A stretch of 64,000 bases of DNA, from positions 372,001 through 436,000 of the forward strand of contig JAUIHP010000002.1 in NCBI GenBank assembly GCA_030431975.1. The letters are read 5' to 3'. Positions 45,788-61,888 of this stretch are shown here, piece by piece. Numbering within the stretch: position 1 is the first letter of the stretch; every line of letters begins with the position of its first letter. Made by a program: the position numbers and the translations under genes. Source of the stretch: a bacterium (lineage in GTDB: Bacteria; Eisenbacteria; RBG-16-71-46; CAIMUX01). The notes below the pieces were generated by a model that saw nothing but the letters and a program-made list of their open reading frames with translations, searched no databases and had not been told where the DNA came from.

Positions 45788-47223
45788 GCCGAGGCCGGAG
45801 GGTTCGGAGGCCGCTTCAGAGAACGCTGCGGAGGATTTTTCGGAGAACGAGAATGCGCCGGGCCATTGGCGGCAGCTTCACTCGCCCACGAGACGAGGAT
45901 CCCACCCCACGCCCAAAGAAGGTGGTTTGCAGGAAGGTCGCCACTGATCTGTACGTTGACGAAGAGGAACACGAAAACGACCGCTGCCAGTCGGACCTGG
46001 GGGAGATTCGCCCGCACTCCGGCCGCCGCCCGCCGGGCAACGAAAACGCACCAACCGACAAAGAGACCGACGCCGACAAGACCGTTCTCGACCCATAGCT
46101 CGAGAAAGATGTTGTGGGGGTAGAGCCGGACGTCTTCGAAACCGGCGACGACGCCGTAGCCTCCCGTCCCGACGCCGACGAGCCCGGGACTGCTGCCCAG
46201 ATCCCAGACGGCCTTTAGCAACATGACCCGGACGGCGTTGGAAACGTCGTGTCCGGTAAACGGAGAGGCGTCGGTCGCGCCCTGGATCTCGATCCAGGCA
46301 AAGCCCGCAAGAAACGCCAGCCCGAGAATGGACGCGATGGCGAACCGAAGCCGGAACCGGCCGCGAAGTGTCCACCAGAATCCGGCGGAGAGAACCAGCG
46401 CCAGGAGAGGCCCCCTCGATCCGGCCGAGTAGAAGACATACGCGAACAGGATGACGAGAGCGGTAGCCAACGTCCGCGGAACAACACGCTCACCGGCGGC
46501 CGCAATGGCCACGAGGATTCCAACACCGGCATATCGCGCAAGCCAGATCGGGTTCAGTCCCAACGCCTTCAGGCGCGTCTCGAATCCCCAGAACTCCGAG
46601 CGTAGATTCCAAAGGGCGACCAGGGAAATCAACGTGACGACGACGAGGACAGCCCGGTAGAAGTGCCTCCGCTGCTGAGTCTGGTGATCGAAACCAAGCC
46701 CCCGAAACGCGGCCACAGCCAACACGGTCAGTGGAACGTTCTCGAGCAGAAAGATGATCGTCTTGGACCGGCCGTAGCTGGGTCCGGGCGAACCCAACGT
46801 GCGGACGGCCAGCCAAATCCAGAGCGCCAAAGTCCAAAGGACCACCGGGTCTTCGGTGATGCGCCGGACGACGTTGCCGTACCGCGCCAGGCCGCGTCCG
46901 GAGTCTGTCCGAAAGCCCACCTCCCACAAGGCCCCCCAAACGATCCAGGCCACCGGGAGCGCCACGATCACCTGTTGCAGGAAGAGATCATTCCCTGTTG
47001 TCCCGGTGAAACGAAGCGGCCAAAAGATCGCCATCCCGTGGGCAGCTACGGCCAGGGCCACAGCCGGCCGGCGAACGATGAAGAGAAGAAAGGCGACTCC
47101 GAACACCGCCGTGACCACGAGCGGGGACCACGCGGTCAACGCCACGATGACGAGGTCGACGACGAGAATGATCGGGAGCAGCCGTCGCCACGACGGTGCG
47201 CCTTCCGCGACCGTCAAGGTCAC
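45784..47223 (-). CDS. O-antigen ligase/polymerase-like membrane protein
   Basis: A 479-residue protein with about 11-12 membrane helices (VVDLVIVALTAWSPLVVTAVFGVAFLLFIV onward). The Wzy_C/WaaL signature lies in the large periplasmic loop: GVGTGGYGVVAGFEDVRLYPHNIFLELWVENGLVGVGLFVGW, with PHNxFLE...NG typical of the family. It polymerises or ligates lipid-linked polysaccharide repeats at the periplasmic face. The Pro/Ser/Lys-rich tail is cytosolic. ATGA overlap with wzz upstream and GTGA with the glycosyltransferase downstream. Confidence 0.85.
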   Translation of the reverse strand: MTLTVAEGAPSWRRLLPIILVVDLVIVALTAWSPLVVTAVFGVAFLLFIVRRPAVALAVAAHGMAIFWPLRFTGTTGNDLFLQQVIVALPVAWIVWGALWEVGFRTDSGRGLARYGNVVRRITEDPVVLWTLALWIWLAVRTLGSPGPSYGRSKTIIFLLENVPLTVLAVAAFRGLGFDHQTQQRRHFYRAVLVVVTLISLVALWNLRSEFWGFETRLKALGLNPIWLARYAGVGILVAIAAAGERVVPRTLATALVILFAYVFYSAGSRGPLLALVLSAGFWWTLRGRFRLRFAIASILGLAFLAGFAWIEIQGATDASPFTGHDVSNAVRVMLLKAVWDLGSSPGLVGVGTGGYGVVAGFEDVRLYPHNIFLELWVENGLVGVGLFVGWCVFVARRAAAGVRANLPQVRLAAVVFVFLFVNVQISGDLPANHLLWAWGGILVSWASEAAANGPAHSRSPKNPPQRSLKRPPNPPASA

Positions 47224-48398
47224 GAAGCGGAGACCCGACGCAGCAGTCCGCGAAGTTTGAACTCAGCGGCCAACGTCTCGAGACGGGCAAACCGCTCGGG
47301 CTCGTTTTCCCGCATGCGGCGGAAGGCCTCGAACACGATGACCAGTGCCAATGACGCCAGAAATGCGAGAACGGTCGCCCCAATGCAAAGAATGGATCTC
47401 TTGGGACGGATCTTCTTCTCCGCAGGCCGCGCCGGGTCGAGGACGTAGATCGTCGGGGTGTCCCGCTCTTCCTGAATCCGGTAGCTCTCGTACTCCCGCC
47501 GCAGGAACTCGTCCAACGCCTGGTGAACCTGCACTTCACGAAAGGCCCGCAGGTAGTCCAGGGAGAGCTTGGGAAGCTCCCGCAATCCGGTGCGCTCCGC
47601 ATCCTCCCCCGTTTCCAGTTCACGCAACTTGGATCGCATTTCCGCGACCTCACGTTCGAGGCTCGCCCGGTCCGGGTGTCCCGGTCCCAAGCGGCTGGAG
47701 AGAATGTCCAGCTCCACTTCCTTGAGAACGATCTGCGTTTCGAGCTGGGTCAGGGCACGGACGGCCCCCCGAACCTGTTCCTCCGGATCCAGAATCCCCG
47801 TCGTCTCCTGCAGCGAGCGCAATGTCTCTTCGGCATCGACGAGGGCGGCTTGGGACGCTTGAAGACGATTGTCCAGGAACTTCCGGGCCTGGCCCGCGGC
47901 GGAAGTCCGTTTCGTCCGGTTGACCTTGTCGAGTTCCCGAACGAAGGCGTTGGCCATGGCTGCGGCCAGTTCCGGATCTTTGTTCTCGACGTGAATGAAG
48001 ATGATCCCGTGGCCCCCCACTCTGACCGTGACCTGGGCTCGGAGGATCTTCATCGCCACATCGAGGTTGTCGACCTTGTAGACCTCCATGAGGTCGAACT
48101 CGTCGATGATCGCCTCAACGACGGTTCGACTGCGTAGAATCGCCGCATAGACGTCCGAAGGGGACGCCCAGACCGGAAGGTGGTTGCGCCCGGCGCCCAA
48201 AGCGGAGACCGCAACCAGCGACGACAGGGATCCTAAGGCGAAGGATTCTTCCTCGGGTGGAAAGACCGAGGCCGTCGATCGATACCAGTTCGGTAACAGG
48301 AGTGAAACGGCTACAGCGAGGATGCCGACGACGAAGGTGTTGATGAAGATGAATCGTTTCCACCGAGCCAGCGCGAGCAGCTGGTCGATCCAGGGCAT
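47220..48398 (-). CDS. Polysaccharide chain-length determinant, Wzz family
   Basis: A 392-residue inner-membrane protein. The first helix is FIFINTFVVGILAVAVSLLLPNWY, followed by RSTASVFPPEEES (Wzz motif). A long periplasmic coiled coil follows (about 165-290, ARKFLDNRLQASQAALVDAEETLRSLQET), then the pre-helix motif TIYVLDPARPAEKKIRPKRSILCIGATVLAFLASLALVIVFEA with the second helix. No tyrosine-kinase domain is attached and none is adjacent. ATG 48398 has AGGAGGCGG upstream; the longer frame to 48557 is rejected. First gene of the operon, divergent from the amidase gene. Confidence 0.85.
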   Translation of the reverse strand: MPWIDQLLALARWKRFIFINTFVVGILAVAVSLLLPNWYRSTASVFPPEEESFALGSLSSLVAVSALGAGRNHLPVWASPSDVYAAILRSRTVVEAIIDEFDLMEVYKVDNLDVAMKILRAQVTVRVGGHGIIFIHVENKDPELAAAMANAFVRELDKVNRTKRTSAAGQARKFLDNRLQASQAALVDAEETLRSLQETTGILDPEEQVRGAVRALTQLETQIVLKEVELDILSSRLGPGHPDRASLEREVAEMRSKLRELETGEDAERTGLRELPKLSLDYLRAFREVQVHQALDEFLRREYESYRIQEERDTPTIYVLDPARPAEKKIRPKRSILCIGATVLAFLASLALVIVFEAFRRMRENEPERFARLETLAAEFKLRGLLRRVSAS

Positions 48399-48555: not shown

Positions 48556-49350
48556 ATGCGAATCGGCTTCGCTCAAATCGAGCCACGAATCGGAGAGCCC
48601 GAACTCAACCGGGAACGCGCCCTCGAGGCCGTCCAGCAGGCTCGTCACGCCGACCTCCTGGTTCTGCCCGAGCTTTGCAACTCAGGCTATCGGTTCGAGA
48701 GTTCCAGCCAGGCCCGGGATCTGGCCGAAGACGTCAACGGTCCGTTCGTCCAGTCTTTGGCGGGCGCCTCCCGAGAGTATGGAACAACGCTCGTCGCCGG
48801 GTTCTGTGAGAAGGCAGAGGAAGGACTCTTCAACAGTGCGGTTCTGGTCACGCCGAACGGCCGGATCGGACTCTACCGAAAGCTTCATCTCTTCCTTGAC
48901 GAGAAGGATCATTTCCTGCCCGGAGACTTGGGCTTACCCGTCTTCGAAGTCCCTGACGGATCCGACGGCACCGTTCGCATCGGGATGCTCATCTGCTTCG
49001 ACTGGCAGTTCCCCGAGAGCTGGCGAACCTTGGCTTTGCGGGAAGCGGACATCGTCTGCCATCCATCCAATCTGGTGCTTCCGGGACTGGCCCAGCGTTG
49101 TGTCCCGGTCCACGCCCTCCTCAATCGACTCTTCGTCGTCACGTCGAACCGAGTCGGCGCGGAGAGCGATCTCACCTTCACCGGAGGGTCGCTGGTGGCT
49201 GCTCCCAAAGGGGAGGTCCTGGCCCACGCACCCGAGTCCGAAGTCGAGGTAACGGTCGTCGAGGTCGATCCGAAGGCGGCACGGGACAAGTCGGTCACAG
49301 CCAGAAATGATCTCTTGGCCGATCGCCGTCCCGAGATGTACGAGACCTAA
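48556..49350 (+). CDS. Carbon-nitrogen hydrolase (nitrilase superfamily)
   Basis: A 264-residue amidase. The Glu-Lys-Cys triad is E39 (LLVLPELCNSGY), K109 (IGLYRKLHLFLDE) and C147 (IGMLICFDWQFPESWRTLAL). It begins RIGFAQIEPRIGEPELNRERAL, as in family members acting on N-carbamoyl, omega-amide or similar small amides. The exact substrate cannot be told. ATG 48556 has TTTGGGAGG upstream. It stands alone between the polysaccharide and pilus regions. Confidence 0.87.
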   Translation: MRIGFAQIEPRIGEPELNRERALEAVQQARHADLLVLPELCNSGYRFESSSQARDLAEDVNGPFVQSLAGASREYGTTLVAGFCEKAEEGLFNSAVLVTPNGRIGLYRKLHLFLDEKDHFLPGDLGLPVFEVPDGSDGTVRIGMLICFDWQFPESWRTLALREADIVCHPSNLVLPGLAQRCVPVHALLNRLFVVTSNRVGAESDLTFTGGSLVAAPKGEVLAHAPESEVEVTVVEVDPKAARDKSVTARNDLLADRRPEMYET

Positions 49351-49616: not shown

Positions 49617-50168
49617 GTGCGCAAGAATGATGGTTTCACGATGGTCGAAGTCATCGTGATCGTCGCCGTGATCGCCATTCTCGGTGGGATTCTGACCCCG
49701 ATGGTGATCAAGGAGATCGGCAAATCGAAGATGACCCGTGCCGGAGCCGACATGGCAGCCGTGGCGACGGCCTTCACGCAGTACTACGCGGACACGGGCT
49801 ACTGGCCGGAGCGGTATGACGGATCGAACGACCGCCGAACGACGCTCCGGAACTACGACTGTTTCTACGACAACACGCGCAACCTCTCGGGCTGGGACGG
49901 CCCCTACCTCGAGAAGGGCGCGGACAATGGCGGCGCCCGTGTCGCGGCGAATCGTACCGATGGAGTCTGGGACGGCGTCATCGATCCGTGGGGACGACCC
50001 TTTCGCGTCGTCTACGGCCGAGCCGGCGGCACCAGCGTCGGTGGTGGCATCGCCGTCGTTTCCTCAGGGCCGAATGGTCGTTTCGACACGGCCGACGCAG
50101 ACGCCCTGCTTGGAACGGCGACCGACGATGACCTGGTTCACATCGTGACCTCCCGCGTCGGACTCTAG
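49617..50168 (+). CDS. GspG-like major pseudopilin
   Basis: A 183-residue type IV pilin-like protein. Prepilin peptidase site G/FTMVE after a short RKND leader (residue 7), then the hydrophobic helix VEVIVIVAVIAILGGILTPMVI. The C-terminal domain shows the GspG calcium-site layout: WDGVIDPWGRPFRVVYG then VVSSGPNGRFDTADADALL...DDDLV. Start GTG 49617 with AGGAGG eight bases upstream. First gene of a seven-gene rightward pilus/secretion operon. The 266-bp gap before it has no clear gene; TTGACG near 49514 is a possible -35. Confidence 0.88.
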   Translation: MRKNDGFTMVEVIVIVAVIAILGGILTPMVIKEIGKSKMTRAGADMAAVATAFTQYYADTGYWPERYDGSNDRRTTLRNYDCFYDNTRNLSGWDGPYLEKGADNGGARVAANRTDGVWDGVIDPWGRPFRVVYGRAGGTSVGGGIAVVSSGPNGRFDTADADALLGTATDDDLVHIVTSRVGL

Positions 50169-50218
50169 TCAGCTCGAGGTTTGCACTGGGCTAGACGGCC
50201 CCAAAGATCGAGGCAAGG

Positions 50219-51412
50219 ATGCCACTGGTCGAGTACCGCGCCCGGGGTGAAGACGGACGTCTTCACACGGGCCGCACAGATCTAACCCGGATCACCTCTC
50301 TCCGCGAGGAGTTGCGGGAGCAGGGCATCTTCCTGGTGGAAACCAGGAAGATCGGCCCGGGTCGTTTCGTGCGTCGTAAGGTCACCCGTCGCGAGCTGAT
50401 CTTCATCGCCTACCACCTTCAAACCGTCGTCCGCGCCGGCATTCCGCTGATCGCGGGACTGCAGGACCTGAGCGAGCAGTCCCCCAACCGCTACCTGAAA
50501 AGCGTCCTCGACGATGTCGTCGACGCGTTGGGATCGGGCTCTTCCCTAAGCCAGGCGCTGGGCCGCCATCCCAACGTCTTCCCCGAAGAATTCGTCCAGA
50601 TGACGATGTCCGGAGAGGTCAGCGGCCAGCTCGACGAATCGCTCGACCGTTTGGTTCATCTCCTCGAGTGGCAGGAACAACTCGTGGCGCAGGTTCGCCA
50701 ACTCGTCGCCTACCCGATCATGGTTCTCATCGCGCTGGCCGGACTGCTCGTGCTTCTTCTGACCTTCGTCATCCCGCGCTTCGGAAGCATTCTCGATAAC
50801 CTCGATGTGGAGCTGCCTCTTCCGACCCGGGTCCTCATGACGATGAGCCAGTTCTGTCTCGACCACTGGCCGGCGTTGCTCGGTCTGACCATCGGCGCTG
50901 TGATCGCGGGCTTCCTTCTGCGTCGGTCCAGTGCGGTCCGCATCGCCGTCGATCGCTGGTCCCTTCGAATTCCCATGTACGGAAACCTTCGCCTGTCCCT
51001 CATTTCGAGTCAGGTCTCGCACTTTCTCGGCGCCTTCATCGATGCCGGCGTTCCCATCGGTGAAGGACTGAACATGATCGCGCGATTGAGCACCAACTTT
51101 CATGCACGCCGCGTTCTGGGTCGCATTCGTGACCGCGTCTTCGAAGGTGAAACTCTGACCGAAGCCTTCGCCGAGTCCGGTCTCTTTCCCCGACTGGTTC
51201 TGCGCATGATCTCGATCGGCGAAGAGTCGGGAACCCTTCCGGAGTCGCTGAAGAAGGCAGAGGACTACTACGACCGGGAAATCCCCAGACGCGTCAAGAC
51301 GCTGATGGACGTCGCCGCGCCGACACTGACCGTTGTCCTGGCCGCCGTTCTCTGCTTCGTCGTTTTGGCCGTGCTTCTGCCGGTCTACAAGATGTACGGA
51401 GCCCTGACATGA
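50219..51412 (+). CDS. GspF/PilC inner-membrane platform protein
   Basis: A 397-residue platform protein of type II secretion / type IV pili. It opens MPLVEYRARGEDGRLHTG, with two T2SSF cytosolic domains (RRELIFIAYHLQTVVRAGIPLIAGLQDLSEQ and LISSQVSHFLGAFIDAGVPIGEGLNMIARL). Three membrane helices lie at about 165-188, 215-237 and 370-392. The repeats each carry the GExSGxL-type motif (MSGEVSGQLDESL, SIGEESGTLPESL). It interacts with the PilB ATPase and the PilMN/PilOP proteins. It overlaps the next pseudopilin by 4 bp (ATGA). Confidence 0.93.
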   Translation: MPLVEYRARGEDGRLHTGRTDLTRITSLREELREQGIFLVETRKIGPGRFVRRKVTRRELIFIAYHLQTVVRAGIPLIAGLQDLSEQSPNRYLKSVLDDVVDALGSGSSLSQALGRHPNVFPEEFVQMTMSGEVSGQLDESLDRLVHLLEWQEQLVAQVRQLVAYPIMVLIALAGLLVLLLTFVIPRFGSILDNLDVELPLPTRVLMTMSQFCLDHWPALLGLTIGAVIAGFLLRRSSAVRIAVDRWSLRIPMYGNLRLSLISSQVSHFLGAFIDAGVPIGEGLNMIARLSTNFHARRVLGRIRDRVFEGETLTEAFAESGLFPRLVLRMISIGEESGTLPESLKKAEDYYDREIPRRVKTLMDVAAPTLTVVLAAVLCFVVLAVLLPVYKMYGALT

Positions 51413-51999
51413 GCCGGGCGTCCTGCAGAAACCGCCGGGGCCTGACCATGGCCGAACTGATCGTCGTGCTCGCGGTCATGGCCGTGCTGGCCGGTGTGGC
51501 GCTTCCGGTGACGATCCACCAAGTCGGAAAGGCCAAAGTCAGCTCGACCCGGCACGAGATCGCCGACCTCGCGGAATCGATTCGCGCCTACGCCAAGGAC
51601 GTCGGGTACGACCCGGCTCAGGTTCGCTGGGGCCGCTTCCCCGCGGAGGCTCCGGGAGCCGGTCGCTATCGCACGATCCTGGGTACGGATCTCGAAGAGA
51701 ATCTGACCGGCAGTGGTTGGAACGCAGCGTTACGGCGGGGTTGGAACGGTCCATACGTCAGTTCCGAGCGGACGCAGACCGACCCGGACGGCCGCGGCAC
51801 CGAAAGTGCGATCGAGGCCTATCGCGTCGACGGCTGGGGCCGGTACTACGTCTACATGAACCGAAACGCAACGGGCGGCCGTGTCCGCCTGACGGACTCT
51901 GAACGTGTCGTCACGCTGACCAGCGGCGGTCCGGACCGTGATCCGAGAACCGACGACGACAACATCAACGTGATCGTCTACCGCGGTCCGATCTACTGA
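51409..51999 (+). CDS. GspG-like pseudopilin 2
   Basis: A 196-residue prepilin-like protein. Leader MSRASCRNRRG then G/LTMAE cleavage site and helix LIVVLAVMAVLAGVALPVTI. The C-terminal part again has the GspG pattern: RVDGWGRYYVYM followed by VVTLTSGGPDRDPRTDDDNINV. It starts within the gspF stop (ATGA) and its stop overlaps the next ATG (TGATG). Likely a second major-type pseudopilin rather than a GspH/I/J minor pilin. Confidence 0.85.
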   Translation: MSRASCRNRRGLTMAELIVVLAVMAVLAGVALPVTIHQVGKAKVSSTRHEIADLAESIRAYAKDVGYDPAQVRWGRFPAEAPGAGRYRTILGTDLEENLTGSGWNAALRRGWNGPYVSSERTQTDPDGRGTESAIEAYRVDGWGRYYVYMNRNATGGRVRLTDSERVVTLTSGGPDRDPRTDDDNINVIVYRGPIY

Positions 52000-52721
52000 T
52001 GGGCCGCAAACCAATGAGCCCCAACCGAGGAATCGACAGGACGGAATCCGTGAGAAGGCAGTCCAACATCCGGTCCGCGCGACGGCGACTTACCGCAGGG
52101 TTCAGCCTGATCGAGATGATCGTCGTCATCGCGATCATGGCCGTGCTGGCCGGCGTCGCCGTTCCCACAGTGGACTTGTTGCAGACACGGACCCGGTCGA
52201 ATCGAACCGTCGACCAGATGGAGGTCCTCAAGTCTTCTCTGGACGAGTACTTCGTCGACCATCTCGGTTATCCCGCCCAACTCGACGACCTGGAGACGGA
52301 CGGCTACATCTCCAGTTCCTTCGGAGCGGGAGATGCGTTCCTCGACGGTTGGGGAAACGGCTTCACCTACGCCACGACAGGGACCTCGGCCGCGGTTTCG
52401 AGCCTCGGCCCCGACCAGGTCGCCTCGGCGGACGACATCGACCTCAACGTCGACGGCTCACCCATCCTCCGGACTCGGACCCGCGAAAACATGGCCACGA
52501 TCCATCTCGCTCTGCAGCGCTACGAGGACGCCCGCATCGACTCCGGCCTGCCGGTGCTTCCGTCCCAATGGTTCGACGCCAATCCCTTGGCCTGCGCTCT
52601 GGGACTTCTGGTCACCCACGGCTACATCGAGAACGACTCACGCTATCAGGCGGATGCCTGGGGCTCTGAGTTTGCCTTCACCGGTTCGCCCGACGTCCAC
52701 GTGGCGAGCGTGAACCTTTAG
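51999..52721 (+). CDS. GspG-like pseudopilin 3 with duplicated C-terminal module
   Basis: A 240-residue protein with a long basic leader (residues 1-34) before the cleavage site G/FSLIE and helix MIVVIAIMAVLAGVAVPTV. One GspG-type module FLDGWGNGFTYATTG...SSLGPDQVASADDIDLNVDG is followed by a second, shorter copy of the helix-plus-DAWG layout (MATIHLALQRYEDARIDSGLPVLP...YQADAWGSEFAFTGSPD). The duplication is unusual for a pseudopilin. The leader is longer than normal, so the true start could be an internal GTG. Confidence 0.82.
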   Translation: MGRKPMSPNRGIDRTESVRRQSNIRSARRRLTAGFSLIEMIVVIAIMAVLAGVAVPTVDLLQTRTRSNRTVDQMEVLKSSLDEYFVDHLGYPAQLDDLETDGYISSSFGAGDAFLDGWGNGFTYATTGTSAAVSSLGPDQVASADDIDLNVDGSPILRTRTRENMATIHLALQRYEDARIDSGLPVLPSQWFDANPLACALGLLVTHGYIENDSRYQADAWGSEFAFTGSPDVHVASVNL

Positions 52722-52728
52722 GGACGCT

Positions 52729-54258
52729 ATGCGCAGCTGCGGCATTGAAATCAATCCGACGAGCGTAAGGTACGTCGTACTCGATCGCGGTCGCAGAGGA
52801 ACACGCGCCGTTTGCAACGGTCGGGTGCCGGTCGACGCCGACCAGAGTCCGATTCACGTCCTCACGCAGCTCCGAAACTCCGGAGAGATTCCCCACCGCA
52901 TCCGTGTCGCCACGGGGCTGGAAAAGAGCCAACTAAAGTCTCTCATCCTCCCCCCCATGCCGCAGGACGAACTCGAGAAGGCCGTTCAGCACGAGATCTC
53001 CCGCGAGTTGGAGATGGTTGATGAGGAAATGGCCGTCGGGTATCAGGTCCTCGGCCGGGAGCCGGGCGGCAAACGTCGCATTCTCGTTGCGCAAACGCCG
53101 AAACGAAGCGTCCAAGGTCTCGAGCTGGAGCTGCATGAAGCCGGCTTCGAAGTCGAGGCTTTGACGACAAGTAGCGTCGCACTGCTGAGCTATGGCCTGA
53201 CCGAACTGGACCTTTCCAAAGAGCAGCAGGCCATCGCCGTCGTCCACATCGGACAGCAGCGAATGCTTCTAACCGTGCTGGAGCGCGGTCGCATTCGGCT
53301 CATGCGGGACCTGGGACTCGGTCTCGACATTTCTCTCTTTGGAAGCCTGAGCCTCGGCGCAACAGGAACGACTGGTGCTGCGGCGCCCGCCCTCGACGGC
53401 GACGACATCGACTGGGAACTGCTGGACAGCCTCAGCCGCGGCCTTTCCGAAGTCAATCAGGTCGCGGGGCAGATCCGTCGGACGCTCGAATATGACGCGA
53501 GCGAATCGCCGGATCTTCCGGTCGCCCGAATGCTTCTCGCCGGCGACGTGACCCGTGCCGAAGCGATGGTTCCCTTGATCTCGAACGAGATCTCTCTTCC
53601 CATCGAACTTCTGGATCCGACGGACGAGCTGGGACTGCAGGATGACACCGAGTTCGGTGGCGAAGGCCCCTCCTACGCCTTGCCGTTTGCCTTGGCCAAG
53701 CCGCGTCGCGCTGACGCCTTTCTACATCTCGGTCAGAGACCGCGAGCCAAGACCAAGGACCTGCGAGGGGCGGCGTCTTCTCTGGCGTTGGGATTCGGCG
53801 CCTTGGCCACCATCGTTTCGATGCAGTTCGGCGAAGACATCCGGCAACTCACCGAAGCGCGCGAGTCTCTCTACGATGATGTCGCGTCTCTCGAAGAACA
53901 GTTGGGCGCGAAAGGCCAAGGCCTCAGCTTCGCCGGACAATCGGCGTCCATGCGATCCATTCTCGAGAATGCGTATCCGCTCGAGGCCTGGGTATGGACG
54001 GCAAGCCGGGTTCCTCATCAGGAATCCATCGAGTCCCTCGTCCTGGAGCGAGTTGGTAGCGTTTGGTCGGCCCGACTCGAAGGCACTTTCCGGAGTCGCC
54101 CACTGCCGACCGGTGAGTTGGACTGGAGCCGGTTTCAACAAATGCTGGAGCAGGAGCCCCGGGTTCGGGATCTGACGGTTTTGCCCGTCGACGGCGCCTC
54201 GTCCGGATCGGGCATCCCGCTTTCCGTCACCTTTACCTGGGACGGGCAACCACAATGA
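52729..54258 (+). CDS. PilM-PilN fusion (GspL-like assembly protein)
   Basis: A 509-residue protein. Residues 1-330 are a PilM-like actin fold: CGIEINPTSVRYVVLDRGRRG, RVATGLEKSQLKSLILPPMPQDELEKAVQHEISRELE, AIAVVHIGQQRMLLTVLERGRIRLMRDLGLGLD, and MLLAGDVTRAEAMVPLI. A single membrane-like helix follows (about 355-372, AASSLALGFGALATIVSM), then a short coiled coil and a PilN-like periplasmic domain (about 405-509). In T4P systems PilM and PilN are separate; here they are one chain, as in GspL of type II secretion. Overlaps the next gene by 4 bp (ATGA). Confidence 0.82.
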   Translation: MRSCGIEINPTSVRYVVLDRGRRGTRAVCNGRVPVDADQSPIHVLTQLRNSGEIPHRIRVATGLEKSQLKSLILPPMPQDELEKAVQHEISRELEMVDEEMAVGYQVLGREPGGKRRILVAQTPKRSVQGLELELHEAGFEVEALTTSSVALLSYGLTELDLSKEQQAIAVVHIGQQRMLLTVLERGRIRLMRDLGLGLDISLFGSLSLGATGTTGAAAPALDGDDIDWELLDSLSRGLSEVNQVAGQIRRTLEYDASESPDLPVARMLLAGDVTRAEAMVPLISNEISLPIELLDPTDELGLQDDTEFGGEGPSYALPFALAKPRRADAFLHLGQRPRAKTKDLRGAASSLALGFGALATIVSMQFGEDIRQLTEARESLYDDVASLEEQLGAKGQGLSFAGQSASMRSILENAYPLEAWVWTASRVPHQESIESLVLERVGSVWSARLEGTFRSRPLPTGELDWSRFQQMLEQEPRVRDLTVLPVDGASSGSGIPLSVTFTWDGQPQ

Positions 54259-55259
54259 GAGCCCTCCTCGACCGAATCGAATTGTGGTGGTACGCGCGGC
54301 AGGCCGGTAGATCCCAACCGATCTGGCCCGTCGTTCTCATGCTCCTCGGTTTCGTCCTGTTTACGTTCGGCGCCGTCCGTACGGGGATGAGCCTTCGCGC
54401 GCGGGAAGTCCTCCGTAATGAGGTCGCCCGGCTCAGCGATGAGATCGTGGATCTGGAGGCGGCGGCTTCCATGCAGATCGGCGGTGGAAACCTTGCAACG
54501 AAGGAAGGCTACTTCGAGGGCGCCATCCCCTACGGCCGCGTTCCAGGTCCGATTCTTCAGGAGCTTCTGTCCAAACTGAAGGACGCCGGAGTCACCGACT
54601 ACGAGTATCGAATCCGGGAACCTCTGAAGACCTTGGATCCGCAAGCACGCGCCAACGATGAGTATGGCGACGAATTCGCCGACGACTACGGGAACGAGGA
54701 CGACGATCAGCTTTGGGACGAGGACGACTGGGAGTCCGACTCCAGCGGCGAGTCGCAATCCGCCGTAGCCGCTGCCACCTCAGACGTCATCGAAGTGACC
54801 CCGGGACTCACGCTGTTGCAATGGACCGTCGAAGTCTCGGTTCGCTCGAGCTACGCGAAGATCCTGCAGTTCGTCTCCGGCCTGGCCAAGGCCGAACGCC
54901 ACTGGCGCGTCTCCCATCTCGAAATCAGCCGAATGAGTCCGTACCTCGAAGCCAGCTTGGTACTCAAGACGTTCACCCGGGCTGACGGCAAGGAAGAGGC
55001 CGTCGAGACCCTGGGGCCGGTAGCGTTCCACAATCCGTTTGTCGTCGAAAGAAGAGAACAGGGAACCGGCCGAGCCTTGCCGCCGACTCCAAAACTGCGG
55101 GCCGTCCTTGCGGGATCACAACCGCGCGCCTGGCTTGGAGACCACATCGTCACGACCGGAGAGACCGTAGCGTCCTGGACCGTGGAGGAGATCGATGAAG
55201 AAGGAATCTGGATACGCCACGCCGGCGGACGCCGAATCCGCCTTGCTGTGGCAGGCTGA
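54255..55259 (+). CDS. PilO-PilP fusion (GspM/GspC-like)
   Basis: A 334-residue protein. N-terminal membrane helix (about 24-42, VVLMLLGFVLFTFGAVRTG), coiled coil (REVLRNEVARLSDEIVDLEAA) and a PilO-like ferredoxin fold split by a very acidic linker (about 136-160, many Asp/Glu). The C-terminus (about 280-334) is PilP/GspC-like: PKLRAVLAGSQPRAWLGDHIVTTGETVASWTVEEIDEEGIWIRHAGGRRIRL. Such a domain normally contacts the secretin N0 domain, so this fusion would bridge PilMN to the secretin next door. Confidence 0.75.
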   Translation: MRALLDRIELWWYARQAGRSQPIWPVVLMLLGFVLFTFGAVRTGMSLRAREVLRNEVARLSDEIVDLEAAASMQIGGGNLATKEGYFEGAIPYGRVPGPILQELLSKLKDAGVTDYEYRIREPLKTLDPQARANDEYGDEFADDYGNEDDDQLWDEDDWESDSSGESQSAVAAATSDVIEVTPGLTLLQWTVEVSVRSSYAKILQFVSGLAKAERHWRVSHLEISRMSPYLEASLVLKTFTRADGKEEAVETLGPVAFHNPFVVERREQGTGRALPPTPKLRAVLAGSQPRAWLGDHIVTTGETVASWTVEEIDEEGIWIRHAGGRRIRLAVAG

Positions 55260-55260
55260 C

Positions 55261-57192
55261 ATGATGGCCTCTTGCAACGGCCGGATGTCGCCGAAAGTTT
55301 CGCCCGTCGACGTCGCATCACCGCGAGGAGTCGCTTCGGTCGCGTTGGCCTTCGGAACCGCACTTGCCGCGCTCCTTCCGGGTGTCACAGCCGCGGAGTC
55401 CTGGTTCGTTATGGCTGACCGGATTCCTGTGTCCGAGGAACAGCGGCTGACCCTGTCCCAGACCGACCTCGACCTCGAGGAGACGTTGCGGCTTCTGCTC
55501 GACGAAAGCGGTTTGAGCCTGGTACTGGAAGGCCCTCTCCCGGACCGCACTCAGACCCGAATCTACGACGCCACGCTGGGAGAAGCCCTGGAGTCCCTGG
55601 CGAGGGCTCACGACTTTTCCTACCAGGTCGAAGGCAGCTCTCTCGTCGTCTCGACGACAGAGACGCACACCTTCCGCATCGACTATCTGGGAGATCCCGA
55701 TGCGAACTTCTGGGTCGATCTCGACGAGTCCATCGTCGCCCTGCTCGGAGATGACGGCAGCTTCAATGTCTCCCCAAGATCCGGAAGTGTCACCGTCATC
55801 TCGACGCCGTCCCGCGTTCGCGAGGTCGGTCGTTATCTCGAGGAACTCGAGACCATCCTTTCCGAGCAGGTTCACATCGAAGCCAAGATCATGGAGATCT
55901 CCCTCGATGATGCCCTTCGCATCGGCGTCGACTGGACCGGGTTCGAGGACAACTGGGAAAACTTCGAACCCAGTACATCTGCCGGAGGACTCCTTCAACT
56001 GCGTACGACGGAGGATCTGGGCGGCGTCTTCCAAATGGGACTGCTGCGCACGGACAAGCTCGACATTCTGATCGAGATGTTGGAACAGGAGGGCAACCTC
56101 GAGATTATCTCCCGTCCGCGCGTCGCCGCCATGGGCAACGAGCCTGCGACCTTTCGCATGACCGAAAACGTCCCCTACTACGAGATCGAAGTCATCACGA
56201 CCGAGGGAAGCGAGCCCTACGTCCAGTACGAAGTGGACTTCAAGGAAGCAGGGGTCGTCCTGGAAGTCTTCGCCCAGGTCGGCGACGACGAAATGGTCAT
56301 GCTGAAGGTTCATCCGACGGTGACCACGGTCACGGGATTCACCGAGTCGCTCCCCAACCTTCCCCCCCAACCGATCATCGACGTTCGCGAAACGGAGACC
56401 TCGGTTCGCCTTCGCGAAGATGAGACGCTGGTCGTCGGCGGAATGATTCAAACCCTGGAGTCGGAACAGATCGACGGGATTCCACTCATCTCCCGGCTCC
56501 CTCTGATCGGTGGGCTCTTCCGCCGAACGAACATCGAGGAGCAGCGCCGGGAGCTGGTCATCCTGCTGACTCCACGGCTCATCGGGGATGCGTTGACCGC
56601 AAGACTACGAGACTCCGGGACGGGGATCCGAATCGAACCCACATGGATGCCGTTGGAACCTCGTAGCGCCTTCGCAGCCCACGAGCACAATCGCGCCCTG
56701 GACGCCTTTGACGCGGGGGACGTTCCGCGGGCCGTGGATCATGCGCGTCGAGCTGTCGCCTTTGCCCCGGGTTCGGCCGAGGTCCGCACGAATCTCGCCT
56801 ACTTCCTGGCGCAGGCAGGTCGGATGGAGGAAGCCCGTGTCCAGTGGCAGAAGATCGCCGGTACGACCGGACGCGTCGTCGCCTGGTCCCGGACAAATCT
56901 GCTGGCGCTCGATGCAGCCCTGCGTCGGGATTCGCGTCGCCTTGACTGGATTCTGGAGAATGCAGACTCACCGCTCATCCGCGCCGCCGCGCTCGTCAAC
57001 GAAGGCATCCGCCTCAAAGACCAGGGACGGTCGGAGGAAGCCCTGGCCCTCCTCGAGCGAGCCAAGAGCGAGATCGAGGTTCCGGCCCTCCACAACGTGG
57101 TCGACGAACTGATCCTGAGCTGGGAACAGCCACGAACGCAGGCGCTCCCGGGATGGGAAGAGACGGAGAGCAAGGCCGCGGCAGGAGAGTAA
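55261..57192 (+). CDS. Secretin (PilQ/GspD) with C-terminal TPR domain
   Basis: A 643-residue outer-membrane channel subunit. Signal region VASVALAFGTALAALLPGVTAA. Short N0/STN-like domain (LDLEETLRLLLDESGLSLVL) and an N1-type domain (GSVTVISTPSRVREVGRYLEELE). The secretin core runs from QVHIEAKIMEISLDDALRIGVDW to LRRELVILLTP-type end, with VRLREDETLVVGGMIQ and IPLISRLPLIGGLFRR motifs. Residues about 505-620 form TPR-like helices (RAVDHARRAVAFAPGSAEVRTNLAYFLAQAGRMEEAR, GRSEEALALLERAKSE), an unusual tail on a secretin. ATG 55261 follows the upstream stop by one base. ATG 55195 with GGAGGAG upstream is an alternative. Confidence 0.88.
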   Translation: MMASCNGRMSPKVSPVDVASPRGVASVALAFGTALAALLPGVTAAESWFVMADRIPVSEEQRLTLSQTDLDLEETLRLLLDESGLSLVLEGPLPDRTQTRIYDATLGEALESLARAHDFSYQVEGSSLVVSTTETHTFRIDYLGDPDANFWVDLDESIVALLGDDGSFNVSPRSGSVTVISTPSRVREVGRYLEELETILSEQVHIEAKIMEISLDDALRIGVDWTGFEDNWENFEPSTSAGGLLQLRTTEDLGGVFQMGLLRTDKLDILIEMLEQEGNLEIISRPRVAAMGNEPATFRMTENVPYYEIEVITTEGSEPYVQYEVDFKEAGVVLEVFAQVGDDEMVMLKVHPTVTTVTGFTESLPNLPPQPIIDVRETETSVRLREDETLVVGGMIQTLESEQIDGIPLISRLPLIGGLFRRTNIEEQRRELVILLTPRLIGDALTARLRDSGTGIRIEPTWMPLEPRSAFAAHEHNRALDAFDAGDVPRAVDHARRAVAFAPGSAEVRTNLAYFLAQAGRMEEARVQWQKIAGTTGRVVAWSRTNLLALDAALRRDSRRLDWILENADSPLIRAAALVNEGIRLKDQGRSEEALALLERAKSEIEVPALHNVVDELILSWEQPRTQALPGWEETESKAAAGE

Positions 57193-57254
57193 CGACCTGA
57201 GGGGTTGGTCGGCTCAGTCAGGCCGGACGAGTCAGGCAAACTGAACGCATTGAG

Positions 57255-58850
57255 TCACGCTGCTTCGGCCGGTCGAACTGTGGGCGCTGCAGCCGGAGCG
57301 ACTTCGTCCGGCGTGTAGTCTCCGAGGACCCGCACCATCTCTTCGACCGTCGTCCACCCTTCGGCGACCCGCCGCGTGGCATGCATGCGCAACGTCTCGA
57401 AACCGTCGGCCTTCGCCGCTCGTTCGAGTTCCCGCACGCTCTTCCCCTCGACGAATCCCCTGCGCACGGTCTCGGACATCTCTAGGATTTCGAAGACCGC
57501 GAATCGCCCCTGATACCCCTGTCCTTCACACTCCGTACAACCGGCGCCGACTTGTAGATTCAGCGGTTGACCTTCGGGCCACTGCAACGCAGCACGTTCC
57601 TCCGGCGTGGCCGGACGGGCGTCACTGCAGAACTTGCAGTTCTTCCGCATGAGACGTTGCGCCATGATCCCGTTGATCGTCGTCGAAATGAGGAACGGCG
57701 GAATCCCCATGTCACGTAGCCGGGTCAGGGTCTCGACCGCCGTGTTCGTATGCAAAGTACTAAGAACGATGTGGCCTGTAAGAGAGGCTCGCATCGCGAT
57801 CTCCGCCGTTTCCTTGTCACGAATCTCACCGACAAGAATGATGTCCGGATCCTGTCGCATCAGGGCTCGCAGTCCGGAGGCAAATCCGAAACCAGCCTTC
57901 TCCGAGATCTGGGACTGGCGGATTCCGGCGAGGCGATACTCGACCGGATCCTCCAGGGTCATGATGTTCTGGCTCTCGGTATCGAAAAGCTGAAGTGCAC
58001 TGTACAAACTGGTCGTCTTACCCGAACCAGTCGGTCCGGTCACGAGGAGCATTCCGTGGGGACGCCGCACGATTGCCGCGATCGCCTTCTGGTCCTCCTC
58101 CTGAAATCCGAGTTCCGCGAACCCGATCTGGACGTTGCTGCGATCGAGAACACGCAGGACGACGTTCTCTCCATTGACAGTCGGCGTCGTCGACACGCGG
58201 AAGTCAATACTCTTGCCGTCGATCTGCACGTCGAACTTGCCGTCCTGGGGCAGGCGGCGGTCGGAGATGTCGAGACCGGCCAGGATCTTGATTCGCGTCG
58301 ACACCGGTTGATGAAGAGCAAAAGGAAGACGCTGCACCACCGCGAGAACCCCGTCTATACGGAAGCGAATGAGCAGTTCCGTTTCCTCCGGTTGGAGGTG
58401 GACGTCGGTGGCACGAACCCGGCGAGCTTCAAAGAGCAACTGATCGACGAGCTGGACGATCGGAAGTTCGGAACCGTCGGCGCCCTTCTTCGATATCCGC
58501 GTCGCCTCTGCGGCGACGGCCTCCAACTGATTCGATCCGCTCTGCCCACCGTAGACCCGATTGATGAGCTCACGAAGTCGGGCTTCCGGTAGTTTGACCG
58601 GTAAGGGCCGCTTCTTCGAGACCAGTTCAATGTAGTCCAAGGCCTCGAAGTCGCTTGGGTCTTTCATTGCGACTTTGATGTGCGGGCCCTCGACGGCAAT
58701 CGGCATGATCGTGAAGCGGACCGCGAGCTGGTATGGAATCAAAGCGGTCGCGTCGGCGTCGGGAACGAACGCTGAACTCTCGAGGTCGCTCTTGGGGGTC
58801 TGCGGTTGGTAGAGGCGGCGGGCCTCACCTGGGGAGTCGTCTCTCGCCAT
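57255..58850 (-). CDS. GspE/PilB assembly ATPase
   Basis: A 531-residue AAA-like hexameric motor. The N-terminal MshEN-like domain (about 30-100) includes ALIPYQLAVRFTIMPIAVEGPHIKVAMKDPSDFEALDYI. Walker A is TGPTGSGKTTS (271-281), the Asp box TLEDPVEYRL, Walker B DPDIILVGEIRD (334-345) and the His box GHIVLSTLHTN. A zinc site C405-x2-C408...C438-x2-C441 identifies the extension (PilB/GspE) type rather than PilT. It is on the strand opposite the pilus genes, convergent with the secretin, and begins directly after the receiver gene's stop. Confidence 0.95.
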   Translation of the reverse strand: MARDDSPGEARRLYQPQTPKSDLESSAFVPDADATALIPYQLAVRFTIMPIAVEGPHIKVAMKDPSDFEALDYIELVSKKRPLPVKLPEARLRELINRVYGGQSGSNQLEAVAAEATRISKKGADGSELPIVQLVDQLLFEARRVRATDVHLQPEETELLIRFRIDGVLAVVQRLPFALHQPVSTRIKILAGLDISDRRLPQDGKFDVQIDGKSIDFRVSTTPTVNGENVVLRVLDRSNVQIGFAELGFQEEDQKAIAAIVRRPHGMLLVTGPTGSGKTTSLYSALQLFDTESQNIMTLEDPVEYRLAGIRQSQISEKAGFGFASGLRALMRQDPDIILVGEIRDKETAEIAMRASLTGHIVLSTLHTNTAVETLTRLRDMGIPPFLISTTINGIMAQRLMRKNCKFCSDARPATPEERAALQWPEGQPLNLQVGAGCTECEGQGYQGRFAVFEILEMSETVRRGFVEGKSVRELERAAKADGFETLRMHATRRVAEGWTTVEEMVRVLGDYTPDEVAPAAAPTVRPAEAA

Positions 58851-59258
58851 CTAGGCCACCCTTCGGGAATCTGCTTCTGCATCATCCAAGCCCATGAGCC
58901 TCTTCACCGTTCCGTAGAGTTCGACGGACGAAAACGGTTTGGTCATGTGCGCATCGCTGTCCACCTTGGCCTGCTCCCAGCCCGGACCGACGGCGCGCCC
59001 CGTCAGAATGATCGTGGGAACCGATTTCCATGCTTCGGTTCTGCGGACGATTCGAACGAAGTCTCCACCCGACATGCGCGGCAGGTAGAAGTCGCACAAG
59101 ACGACCGCCGGCAGCGGCCCTTCTTTCAACAACTCGATCCCTTCCTCCGCCGACTCGACCGCTTGAGTACGGATCCCGGCCCGTTGGAGCACCGCGCTTG
59201 CAGTGCGGCGGATGACGACATCGTCGTCGATGATCAGGACCATTCCTTCCTCAATCAT
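58851..59258 (-). CDS. Stand-alone response-regulator receiver
   Basis: A 135-residue REC domain without output domain. Acidic pocket D11-D12-D13 (VLIIDDDVVIRR), phospho-acceptor D56 (VVLCDFYLPRMSGGDF), Thr switch in TIILTGRAVG, and Lys in AHMTKPFSSVELYG. It overlaps the phosphatase gene end by 8 bp and its stop abuts the PilB ATG, so it is co-transcribed between a signalling phosphatase and the pilus motor. ATG 59258 chosen; ATG 59243 is possible. No histidine kinase is adjacent. Confidence 0.88.
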   Translation of the reverse strand: MIEEGMVLIIDDDVVIRRTASAVLQRAGIRTQAVESAEEGIELLKEGPLPAVVLCDFYLPRMSGGDFVRIVRRTEAWKSVPTIILTGRAVGPGWEQAKVDSDAHMTKPFSSVELYGTVKRLMGLDDAEADSRRVA

Positions 59259-61359
59259 CTTTGGACCAGTTCCTTTCACAGTAGAGGACATTGGGTGGCC
59301 CAGGTTCGTAGCGGACCACGTCCGTCAGTTCATGCAGGAGAAAGATTCCGAATCCGCCCTCGGGCAGATCTTCAGGATCGGGCTTGTTCACGTCGACGGC
59401 CGTCATGTCAAAAGGAACTCCCGGGGCTTCGACCCGGCAGGCCAGACCTCCGCTCTGGAGGTTCCAACAAACCTTGATCTCCTCATCCTCGGAGAGGCCG
59501 CCGTGCTCGATGATGTTGGCCACGGCCTCATGGACGGCGAGCTTCAGGTCCGAAGCACATTCCGCCCTGTCGCTTTCCAGCGGGTGCGCCGCCAACAACT
59601 CGTCGAGCGCTCCGTTGACCCGTTGCATCTCTGAGACTTGGGCCAGAATGTTCACTTCGCACGACGGCGCGGACTCGGACTCGCACGCGGACTGCGCTGC
59701 GCTGGTTCCCAGTTGGTCAACCGGGTTGGCGCACAGGACCAGAATCGTCTGGTCGTCCGACTGCGGCGCTCCCTTGCTGTAGCTCTCAACGTCTTCGACA
59801 ATCAGTTTGCGTATGGTTTCCGCATCCGTGGCGGAAGAGGACGCAAACAACTCTTCCAGTCGCTCGTCCGTGTAGAAACCGTGCTCCGTGTTTCGGGCTT
59901 CCGTCACTCCGTCGCTGCACGCCAACAAGGTCGCCCCCGGCCCGAAAGGAAGGACGACCGGGTCCATCGCGTCAGGAGGAAAGACGCCGAGTGGTGCCTG
60001 CTCGGGATCGATGCGCATGAACGGTTCCGTCGGACCGGACCGGAACAAGACCGGCGAATGCCCCGCATTGGCCAAACGGAGTTCCGCTTTCTTCGGATCT
60101 AGGAAACCGAGAACCAAAGTCACGAACTTGCCGACTTCTTCCAAGTCGTCGTACAGCACCTTACTCAACCCTTGGAGCAGCGCATTGGGCATCTGGGACA
60201 ATGGAGTCAACGAACGAAAGACGGTCCGGGTCATCGCCATGATGAGCGCCGCCGGCACACCTTTCCCGGTGACGTCACCCAGGGCAAAGGCGATTCGACC
60301 GTCGTCGAGATGCTGCACGACGTAGAAATCTCCCCCAACGCTGGAAGCCGGGATGCACGACGCCGCTACCGTGTAGCCATCGACGGTCGGCACGCTTCGC
60401 GGCATGAGCATTTCCTGGATCTCACTCGCGATTTCGACTTCACGTTGCAGCTTGGTGTTGGCCACGACCTGACTCTGCAGACGATCTGTTTCCAGGAAGC
60501 CTGCGGCGATCTCGGCCAGCGTCTGCAGGTGTTTGACCTGACGGACTCCGAGTTCCATACCGGGAAGTTCCTGTGCCCCGCAAACCAACCACCCGATGAT
60601 TTCACCCTGAACGAAAAGTGGCGCCGCAACGAAGGTTTCCGGCTCGTAGCCAACGAAGGCTTCGTTGCGCCGAAAGCACCGCTCCTGGATCGAATCGGCT
60701 CGTTCCCGGTGATAGTCGTCCTCTACGGGCCACAGAATGAAGTGACTCGATCCGGACTCCTGGGCAGCAAAGAACGCGATGTCCGAAGCAAACTGCCGAC
60801 TCACCTCCTCGAGGAGGACGGTGATCTTCTCGTCAAGCGCCCACGTCCCGCTCGTTTGGCCGATGATCTGATAGAGGGAAACGAGCTGGTTGGTGTTTCC
60901 AATGTGATCCTGGACGACGCGGTCAAGTTCGTCTTCCGTCTCCATCGCCGCCTGCAGAAAGGAACCGAGGGCGCGGAGTGCCCCAGCGGCGGCCTTTCCG
61001 TCGGACGAAGAGTCACCTTCGATCTCGATGGCCCCGGTCTCGCCCATGGGAATGGTGCAGGTCGATTGGGCGCTCACCGCGGTCACAGCCGCACCCGTCG
61101 TCCCCTCAGCCACCGCCGGCACAGAGGACCACACGACGTCGCCGGCTCCGTTGCGAACTCGCCAGACCGCTTCCGCTCCCCCGATCTCGACCGCCATCCG
61201 GGAAAGAGTTGCCTCGTGCTTCCAAAGCAGCTGTCTCAGGGTGTCGTCAGACTTCAATGGATGCTCCAGAGTTGGATGTGAATCCCCCGGGGCGTTTTCG
61301 TGGGCCCCAGGCTTGTCCTCCGCCTCCTCGTCGGCCGGTCGAGGCGTCCTCAAAGTCAT
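59251..61359 (-). CDS. GAF / SpoIIE-type PP2C phosphatase with RsbW-like kinase domain
   Basis: A 702-residue soluble signalling protein. A GAF-like sensory domain (about 160-325) includes ITVLLEEVSRQFASDIAFFAA...ETFVAAPLFVQGEIIGWLVCG. The SpoIIE/RsbU phosphatase (about 345-555) has SSVGGDFYVVQHLDDGRIAFALGDVTGKGVPAALIMA, the NAGHSP motif, TLLACSDGVTEARN and SDDQTILVL. The C-terminal HATPase_c/RsbW-type domain (about 585-702) has N-box KLAVHEAVANIIEHG and GGFGIFLLHELTD. Phosphatase and anti-sigma-type kinase are thus on one chain, the two opposing enzymes of partner switching. ATG 61359 is chosen; the frame opens at 61458. Divergent from the STAS gene. Confidence 0.87.
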   Translation of the reverse strand: MTLRTPRPADEEAEDKPGAHENAPGDSHPTLEHPLKSDDTLRQLLWKHEATLSRMAVEIGGAEAVWRVRNGAGDVVWSSVPAVAEGTTGAAVTAVSAQSTCTIPMGETGAIEIEGDSSSDGKAAAGALRALGSFLQAAMETEDELDRVVQDHIGNTNQLVSLYQIIGQTSGTWALDEKITVLLEEVSRQFASDIAFFAAQESGSSHFILWPVEDDYHRERADSIQERCFRRNEAFVGYEPETFVAAPLFVQGEIIGWLVCGAQELPGMELGVRQVKHLQTLAEIAAGFLETDRLQSQVVANTKLQREVEIASEIQEMLMPRSVPTVDGYTVAASCIPASSVGGDFYVVQHLDDGRIAFALGDVTGKGVPAALIMAMTRTVFRSLTPLSQMPNALLQGLSKVLYDDLEEVGKFVTLVLGFLDPKKAELRLANAGHSPVLFRSGPTEPFMRIDPEQAPLGVFPPDAMDPVVLPFGPGATLLACSDGVTEARNTEHGFYTDERLEELFASSSATDAETIRKLIVEDVESYSKGAPQSDDQTILVLCANPVDQLGTSAAQSACESESAPSCEVNILAQVSEMQRVNGALDELLAAHPLESDRAECASDLKLAVHEAVANIIEHGGLSEDEEIKVCWNLQSGGLACRVEAPGVPFDMTAVDVNKPDPEDLPEGGFGIFLLHELTDVVRYEPGPPNVLYCERNWSKDD

Positions 61360-61534
61360 AATCGGAGGTCGATCCCCACATCTTGACGGCCAGCCCCCGA
61401 ACCTGGCTCCGCTTGGCGTCCTCCTCGAGGGTCTCTCCGAATCGCACTCCGGACGCACCCGAAGCTAAAGACGTCCCGCCGTCGGGCCGATTTTCACTTC
61501 GAAAGCGTTCACGGCATTGACCGGAGGAATTGAG

Positions 61535-61888
61535 ATGGATCTCCAGTTCGAGGATCACGGCGGCATCTGCGTCATCCGAACGCTCGAGACCGAGCTCGGC
61601 GCCGACAAGTCGGAGCAACTGCGCGAGCAGTTGTTGGCCAAGCTCGAAGAGAATCCGAATTGCGCTCTCGACCTGAGCCAGGTGGGCTTCATGGACAGCT
61701 CGGCTCTGGGAGCTCTCGTTGCGGGAATCAAGAGCGTTCGCGGTCGGGGGCACCTCCGCCTCTTCGGTCTGCAGCCGTCGATCGAGAACCTGTTCCGGCT
61801 CACCGGAATGAGTCGAATCTTCCCCTCGGATTCCGATCAGTCGAGCGCAGTCGAATCCATTCGCAAAGCCATGGAGGCCGCTGCCTAA
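61535..61888 (+). CDS. STAS-domain anti-sigma factor antagonist
   Basis: A 117-residue SpoIIAA/RsbV-like protein. The phosphorylatable serine motif is LSQVGFMDSSALGALVAG (Ser55/Ser56), with the usual preceding strand CALDL and C-terminal VESIRKAME helix. ATG 61535 follows GGAGGA by seven bases. As the neighbour of the phosphatase/kinase protein, it is the obvious substrate: phosphorylated by the RsbW-like domain, dephosphorylated by the SpoIIE-like domain (inference from family biochemistry). Its downstream partner is not identifiable in the window. Confidence 0.92.
   Translation: MDLQFEDHGGICVIRTLETELGADKSEQLREQLLAKLEENPNCALDLSQVGFMDSSALGALVAGIKSVRGRGHLRLFGLQPSIENLFRLTGMSRIFPSDSDQSSAVESIRKAMEAAA

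Follow-up and report, generated by a model that had tools for sequence, protein, structure and literature searches.

A candidate second type IV filament machine with an MSH-related secretin and fused platform proteins in an Eisenbacteria genome

Our results lean toward the reading that a compact locus in a member of the Eisenbacteria (GenBank assembly GCA_030431975.1) encodes a second type IV filament machine that is complete and functional and whose closest ancestry is with the MSH branch; it would build a short pseudopilus from GspG-like subunits. The locus lies within a window of 64,000 nucleotides, the whole stretch analysed here (contig JAUIHP010000002.1, positions 372,001 to 436,000, labelled C10:372001-436000), in an assembly (G000) of 6.19 Mb in 59 contigs that is 97% complete. 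Genes for pseudopilin 1 (pil1), GspF, pseudopilins 2 and 3 (pil2 and pil3), a PilM-PilN fusion (PilMN), a PilO-PilP fusion (PilOP) and a secretin follow one another on the plus strand with short gaps or overlaps, and the motor gene lies convergent to this run (57255-58850, minus strand). The locus thus holds the components that define the type IV filament superfamily, namely a motor, a GspF/PilC protein, pilins with class III signal peptides and a secretin. All genes named in the original prediction, which was made from the letters of the window alone, were found in place and intact, including the convergent motor, and its proposal of a secretion-type or short-pseudopilus machine is supported insofar as the locus encodes a distinct machine with GspG-like subunits and no signs of decay. 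From the sequences we infer a role in secretion, as a short pilus or in adhesion.

Among the 47 genomes of this phylum used for phylum-wide comparisons, a full-length ortholog of PilMN was found only in G003, a genome of the same order (29-32% identity). The G003 locus (L053) encodes a STAS protein, GAF-SpoIIE, HATPase, a response regulator, the motor, GspF, pil2, pil3, PilMN, PilOP and the secretin, with pil1 behind; the genes from SpoIIE through the secretin are codirectional, and those for STAS and pil1 flank this run from outside. Since the G003 ortholog has every component (26-58% identity, pil2 being the best-conserved protein at 58%), the arrangement in the window is not a chance one. 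Comparison with G003 and Pfam matches also showed that the conserved unit reaches position 61888, adding a response regulator, a GAF-SpoIIE-HATPase gene and a STAS gene; the genes originally listed are real, but these linked signalling genes had been overlooked.

A complete type IVa pilus (T4aP) system is present elsewhere in the genome, on contig C41, which could suggest that the locus is a decaying or silent relic. We regard this as extremely improbable: the locus proteins have no internal stops or frameshifts, GC content at third codon positions is native (0.71-0.80), catalytic motifs are intact and the gene content is kept in G003. Separate pilM to pilQ genes do occur on C41, but they are not accompanied by any such sign of decay at the locus, and decay was rejected on the intact frames, the native third-position GC content and the conservation in G003.

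Phylogenetic trees of the secretin, the motor and GspF place the system apart from T4aP. Reference sequences were labelled from their NCBIfam scores and neighboring genes (the Zoogloeaceae motor is one whose own locus is unresolved), and the GspE-type reference genes were taken from E. coli K-12 MG1655. The secretins of the window and G003 grouped with Methylomonas MshL, an MSH-like secretin of Oceanospirillaceae and the secretin of another genome of the phylum, G010 (support 98-99), and groupings with the type II secretion system (T2SS; p 0.007), with T4aP (p 0.041) and with two other systems of the phylum (p 0.008 and 0.027) were rejected. The best NCBIfam match of the window secretin was likewise MshL (179.6 bits, under its cut-off of 250). 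As judged by these sequence comparisons, the system is MSH-related in its secretin. The motor is an assembly ATPase of the GspE/PilB type (Pfam T2SSE, 433 bits), whose NCBIfam scores against GspE (524 bits; cut-off 630) and PilB (515 bits) are both under cut-off; its Walker A, Walker B, His box and tetracysteine motifs are all intact, and of the c-di-GMP-binding region it lacks the RLG-type half at the N-terminus. It grouped with MSH-like motors from Oceanospirillaceae and Zoogloeaceae genomes (support 96-99), and its grouping with T4aP was rejected (p 0.001 and 0.006); a single clade of all MSH motors was not rejected (p 0.19), yet it was not recovered. GspF, whose tree was otherwise unresolved, also rejected T4aP (p 0.015). 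The phylogeny proposed in the original prediction, of motor and secretin against type IV pili and T2SS, therefore gives an MSH-type secretin and a motor outside T4aP, and the description of the gene set as intermediate between type IV pili and T2SS is not supported.

The inner-membrane platform appears to hold all of the expected domains, in part as fusions. The GspF/PilC-type platform protein (50219..51412, plus strand) matches Pfam T2SSF at 170.7 bits and NCBIfam GspF at 296 bits, below the cut-off of 424. PilMN (52729..54258, plus strand) consists of an actin-like PilM part (approximately 52729-53703), one transmembrane segment (approximately 53761-53829), and a coiled coil and periplasmic PilN-like part (approximately 53830-54255). 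Its PilM domain matches PilM_2 at 39.6 bits (cut-off 27) and PilM profiles in hhalign at 98%, and Pfam recognizes this domain in both locus-bearing genomes. A full-length alignment over 455 columns pairs PilMN with the fused PilMN proteins of other genomes (99%, P 3e-19), in which the C-terminal part is clearly PilN (98%, P 3e-14). The PilN half alone was not recognized by sequence profiles (0.7-13%), and its single-sequence AlphaFold2 model (pLDDT 50) gave no PilN-like structural match; its PilN-like character is thus indicated indirectly, by the topology, with one transmembrane segment after the PilM part, and by the full-length match to the fusions. PilOP (54255..55259, plus strand) has a transmembrane segment (approximately 54321-54377), a PilO ferredoxin-like fold (approximately 54540-54986) and a PilP-like C-terminal domain (approximately 55017-55256). 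Because PilOP matched no Pfam family, we built PilO and PilP profiles from neighboring pilus systems of the phylum, with reversed profiles as controls. In hhalign the last ~80 residues matched PilP profiles of short-secretin systems at 94% (P 9e-8) and of T4aP at 42% (P 3e-4), and residues ~181-247 matched PilO profiles at 34-53% (P 1e-4 to 4e-4), while the reversed controls reached only 0-1%. Independently of the profiles, residues 96-244 of a single-sequence AlphaFold2 model, weak overall (pLDDT 50), match the solved PilO fold 2RJZ (Z 12.1, root mean square deviation 2.2 over 90), and the same region also matches Amuc_1100, PulM, EpsL and EpsM. The fusion domains originally predicted are thus recovered for PilM, PilO and PilP by profiles, and for PilO also by fold, but for PilN only indirectly, and the proposed structure predictions showed the PilO fold in PilOP but no PilN fold in the C-terminus of PilMN. 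The comparison of the PilM-PilN topology with GspL holds, but a reduced platform is not supported: all four domains, M, N, O and P, appear to be present and only fused.

The PilM-PilN fusion recurs in other systems of the phylum and is thus common there. Besides T4aP, these comprise short-secretin systems with separate PilM, PilN, PilO and PilP (L058, L059 and L173) and a system with fused PilMN and separate PilO and PilP (L055 and L164-L166). PilO and PilP were found fused in the two orthologs, those of the window and G003, and nowhere else.

Each of the three pseudopilins has a cleavage motif with Glu at position 5, and each of their heads bears the D-x-W-G motif that is invariant in GspG. 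Pil1 (49617..50168, plus strand; GTG start; motif NDG/FTMVE) has one GspG-like head, matches Pfam T2SSG (28.6 bits) and N_methyl (26.9 bits) above cut-off and is 49% identical to its G003 ortholog; pil2 (51409..51999, plus strand; motif RRG/LTMAE) is also GspG-like and exceeds the cut-offs of both families. Pil3 (51999..52721, plus strand; T2SSG 29.3 bits) carries two tandem GspG-like heads on one N-terminal helix; the second head (approximately 52443-52718, with D-x-W-G) was found by alignment and is shared by the G003 ortholog. Pseudopilins, fusions and secretin are therefore all present as first described, except that the third pseudopilin is two-headed. Tandem heads recur in a G010 pseudopilin with three of them (T2SSG 99.8 bits in three stretches) and in a locus of the planctomycete G347; the three-headed protein is encoded at 7610-8767 of L056 (G010:C104). 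Pfam, NCBIfam and alignments identified only GspG-like pseudopilins in the locus and none of the minor pseudopilins GspH, GspI, GspJ or GspK.

This subunit set bears on the possibility that the locus builds an MSHA-like surface pilus for adhesion or DNA uptake, a filament that exits through the secretin, rather than a secretion machine. The nearest relatives of secretin and motor are of the MSH type, and an exopolysaccharide-type cluster adjoins the window locus, though not its G003 ortholog. However, every subunit is of the GspG-like kind and has the D-x-W-G/Asp-rich loop that typifies T2SS pseudopilins, and a set of MSHA-type minor pilins was not recognized at the locus. We therefore consider a surface pilus possible but doubtful. 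The adjoining exopolysaccharide-type genes (43279-48398 of the window, just upstream) include a chain-length regulator-like gene and an O-antigen polymerase/ligase-like gene, and a nitrilase-family amidohydrolase gene (48556-49350) lies between them and pil1.

The secretin (55261..57192, plus strand) has a signal peptide without a lipobox, N0/N1 domains, a secretin domain (approximately 56080-56583; Pfam Secretin, 139 bits) and a TPR tail (approximately 56677-57114). Its longest open reading frame begins at 55195; the start at 55261 is likelier because this ATG sits just past the PilOP stop and before the plain signal peptide. The predicted tail is confirmed by two Pfam models that exceed their cut-offs (TPR_19, 31.3 bits against 25; TPR_2, 27.2 bits against 27). 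Both TadD and PilF belong to the TPR pilotins, and TadD has a TPR homolog in MshN (PMC10499894; PMC6668835); hence, the tail may be a pilotin that forms part of the secretin itself. A tblastn search of plasmids returned no record covering 80% of the secretin.

Contig C41 carries the complete T4aP set, with PilA, PilS-PilR-like genes, PilC, PilT, PilB, PilD and separate PilM, PilN, PilO, PilP and PilQ. The original prediction noted that neither PilT nor a prepilin peptidase is encoded nearby; this is true of the locus, which has no PilT or PilD gene, but it is a local feature, since the genome search that had been suggested found both in the C41 cluster. There, PilD is the only prepilin peptidase (A24) found in the 97%-complete assembly, and the only secretins found in the assembly are that of the locus and C41 PilQ. 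Since the C41 T4aP supplies a PilT and the only peptidase found, their local absence is uninformative on function. The simplest reading would be that C41 PilD is shared with the locus, and published MSH loci are likewise without a prepilin peptidase (PMC6668835). That C41 supplies these proteins raises the possibility that the locus is accessory to the T4aP, its pseudopilins being additional ones and its envelope complex a variant that works with PilB, PilT and PilQ from C41. We judge this quite improbable, as motor, GspF, M-N-O-P domains and secretin are all encoded at the locus itself, this set is kept in G003, which has its own T4aP locus, and T4aP grouping was rejected for motor, GspF and secretin. 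Further PilT-like ATPases are encoded outside the T4aP cluster (C41:112270, C41:127755, C49:116869, C50:59212 and C50:60380), and retraction may be by one of these. The genome also encodes a 745-amino-acid GspE-like motor that has one pseudopilin and one small membrane protein as neighbors but no secretin close by (C22, L016:7061-9734), and an orphan 723-amino-acid GspE-like motor with a very long tree branch and no surrounding pilus genes (C7, L017:6917-9088).

Several observations weigh against a functional machine nearest to the MSH branch. The trees were built on few reference sequences. T2SS grouping was not rejected for the motor (p 0.37) or for GspF (p 0.09), and for GspF the MSH grouping was weakly rejected (p 0.042). 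The locus has no MshM, a component that the published MSH model requires (PMC6668835), and the only MshM/ExeA-like ATPase of the genome (C49, L185:7838-8689) lies in an exopolysaccharide-type cluster; because mshM is missing, we do not assign the system to MSH. The PilN half is not independently supported. The TPR tail is absent from the G003 secretin and hence lineage specific, and Vibrio cholerae lacking mshN still produces MshA pili (PMC4624765), so that a pilotin role is not generally required. The tail was accordingly dropped as a defining trait of the system.

Some of these points would fit a divergent T2SS that secretes folded proteins and whose secretin was swapped by horizontal transfer. 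The pseudopilins belong to the T2SSG family, PilMN is GspL-like, and motor and GspF reach slightly higher scores with the GspE and GspF models than with those for PilB and PilC. However, the secretin rejects T2SS, all NCBIfam T2SS equivalog scores are under cut-off, and no locus protein could be assigned to GspH, GspI, GspJ, GspK, GspC, GspL or GspM; T2SSC, T2SSL and T2SSM gave no matches, and PilM_2 was found instead. We consider this alternative unlikely, and prefer the second machine nearest to the MSH branch.

The signalling genes at 58851-61458 lie upstream of the motor on the same strand. A stand-alone response regulator receiver (58851..59291, minus strand; Response_reg, 59.5 bits) adjoins the motor gene and occupies the same place in G003. 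Beyond it lies the gene of a GAF-SpoIIE phosphatase with a C-terminal RsbW-like HATPase (59251..61458, minus strand; SpoIIE 163 bits, HATPase_c_2 65.6 bits), whose start is uncertain (approximately 61197 by codon use) and whose G003 counterpart is split into two open reading frames. Divergent from it is the gene of a STAS anti-sigma-factor-antagonist-like protein (61535..61888, plus strand; STAS, 53.9 bits) that carries a DSS phosphosite motif and is 43% identical to the G003 protein. According to Pfam, phosphatase, RsbW-like ATPase and STAS protein are encoded together in both genomes, and their linkage to the motor is shared by these two diverged loci. The SpoIIE-HATPase/STAS switch and receiver probably gate the motor or expression of the locus. 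No SpoIIE-STAS genes were seen next to the G010 or G347 systems, and the link was rejected as a general trait of such systems. In the open-licence library searched we found no account joining SpoIIE and STAS with type II secretion and pseudopilins, and none that brings SpoIIE together with partner switching, an anti-sigma factor antagonist and type IV pili.

More distant relatives share parts of the machine. G010, also of the same order, encodes pil1, motor, GspF, the three-headed pseudopilin, a long PilM-type protein, PilO-like and PilP-like proteins and a secretin, in that order (L056 and L196), its motor lying in two pieces at the ends of contigs C26 and C104, which were assumed to abut. 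A pil2 profile gave three weak matches in 392 genomes of the Anammoxibacter phylum, one of which led to the related, not orthologous, locus L189 of the planctomycete G347. L189 encodes pil1-like pseudopilins (38% identity), GspF, a motor, a secretin that begins like a lipoprotein and a 273-amino-acid pseudopilin that aligns with pil3 over almost its whole length; its platform-like proteins (479, 225 and 261 amino acids) gave no clear profile match. Secretin sequence patterns returned no named relatives, and pil2 patterns gave 14 weak pseudopilin matches, with no orthologous locus among those inspected.

We propose that C41 PilD would mature the pseudopilins in trans and that the motor and GspF would polymerize them. 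PilMN, like GspL in T2SS, would join the cytoplasmic PilM ring covalently to the platform in the periplasm, and PilOP would bear the PilO scaffold, with its PilP domain linking to the N0 domain of the secretin. The two-headed pil3 might replace the usual minor-pseudopilin tip complex, and the TPR tail might act in this lineage as a built-in pilotin like PilF, TadD or MshN that aids secretin assembly. Together with the response regulator, the SpoIIE-HATPase/STAS partner switch would set when the motor or the locus is active, and the machine, running with no retraction ATPase of its own, would either secrete protein or form a short adhesive pilus. A bolder possibility, which we put forward tentatively and think rather unlikely, is an undescribed branch of filament machines that combines an MSH-related secretin, GspG-only subunits with multi-headed ones as the tip, a fused platform of two proteins, a TPR pilotin in one lineage and a SpoIIE-STAS on/off switch.

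The locus offers natural covalent fusions (PilM-PilN, PilO-PilP and secretin-TPR) of partners whose contacts are studied in type IV pili and T2SS; as the partners are covalently fused, their pairing and stoichiometry are directly testable. It also connects a SpoIIE-STAS switch with a filament motor. Finally, it points to relatives of the MSH branch in another phylum, whereas that branch is known mainly from Proteobacteria.

Compared with known systems, the locus resembles MSH in its secretin clade, in a motor that groups near MSH-like motors of two genomes, in a peptidase encoded outside a compact locus and in a secretin-linked TPR protein (MshN in MSH, a fused tail here); it differs in its lack of MshM, its fused platform proteins, its GspG-like pseudopilins in place of MshA/B/C/D-type pilins, its SpoIIE-STAS-response regulator module and a GspF that is not placed with MshG. 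With T2SS it shares a GspE/GspF-type motor and platform, GspG-like pseudopilins and, as in GspL, PilM and PilN in one protein, whereas its secretin is MSH-like, its PilM part is PilM_2 and not T2SSL, PilO and PilP are fused, and the GspC, GspH-K and GspM families are absent. The T4aP of the same genome likewise has PilM, PilN, PilO and PilP domains, a secretin and an assembly motor, but its pilM, pilN, pilO, pilP and pilQ are separate, it includes PilT, and the trees of motor, GspF and secretin reject a grouping of the locus with T4aP. The G010 system (L056 and L196) is similar in its GspG-like pseudopilins, one of which is three-headed, its long PilM-type protein and a secretin of the same clade, and the G347 system (L189) in its GspG-like pseudopilins, the pil3-like one included; in contrast to the window locus, these two systems have separate PilO and PilP, no TPR tail and no adjacent SpoIIE-STAS genes that could be seen.

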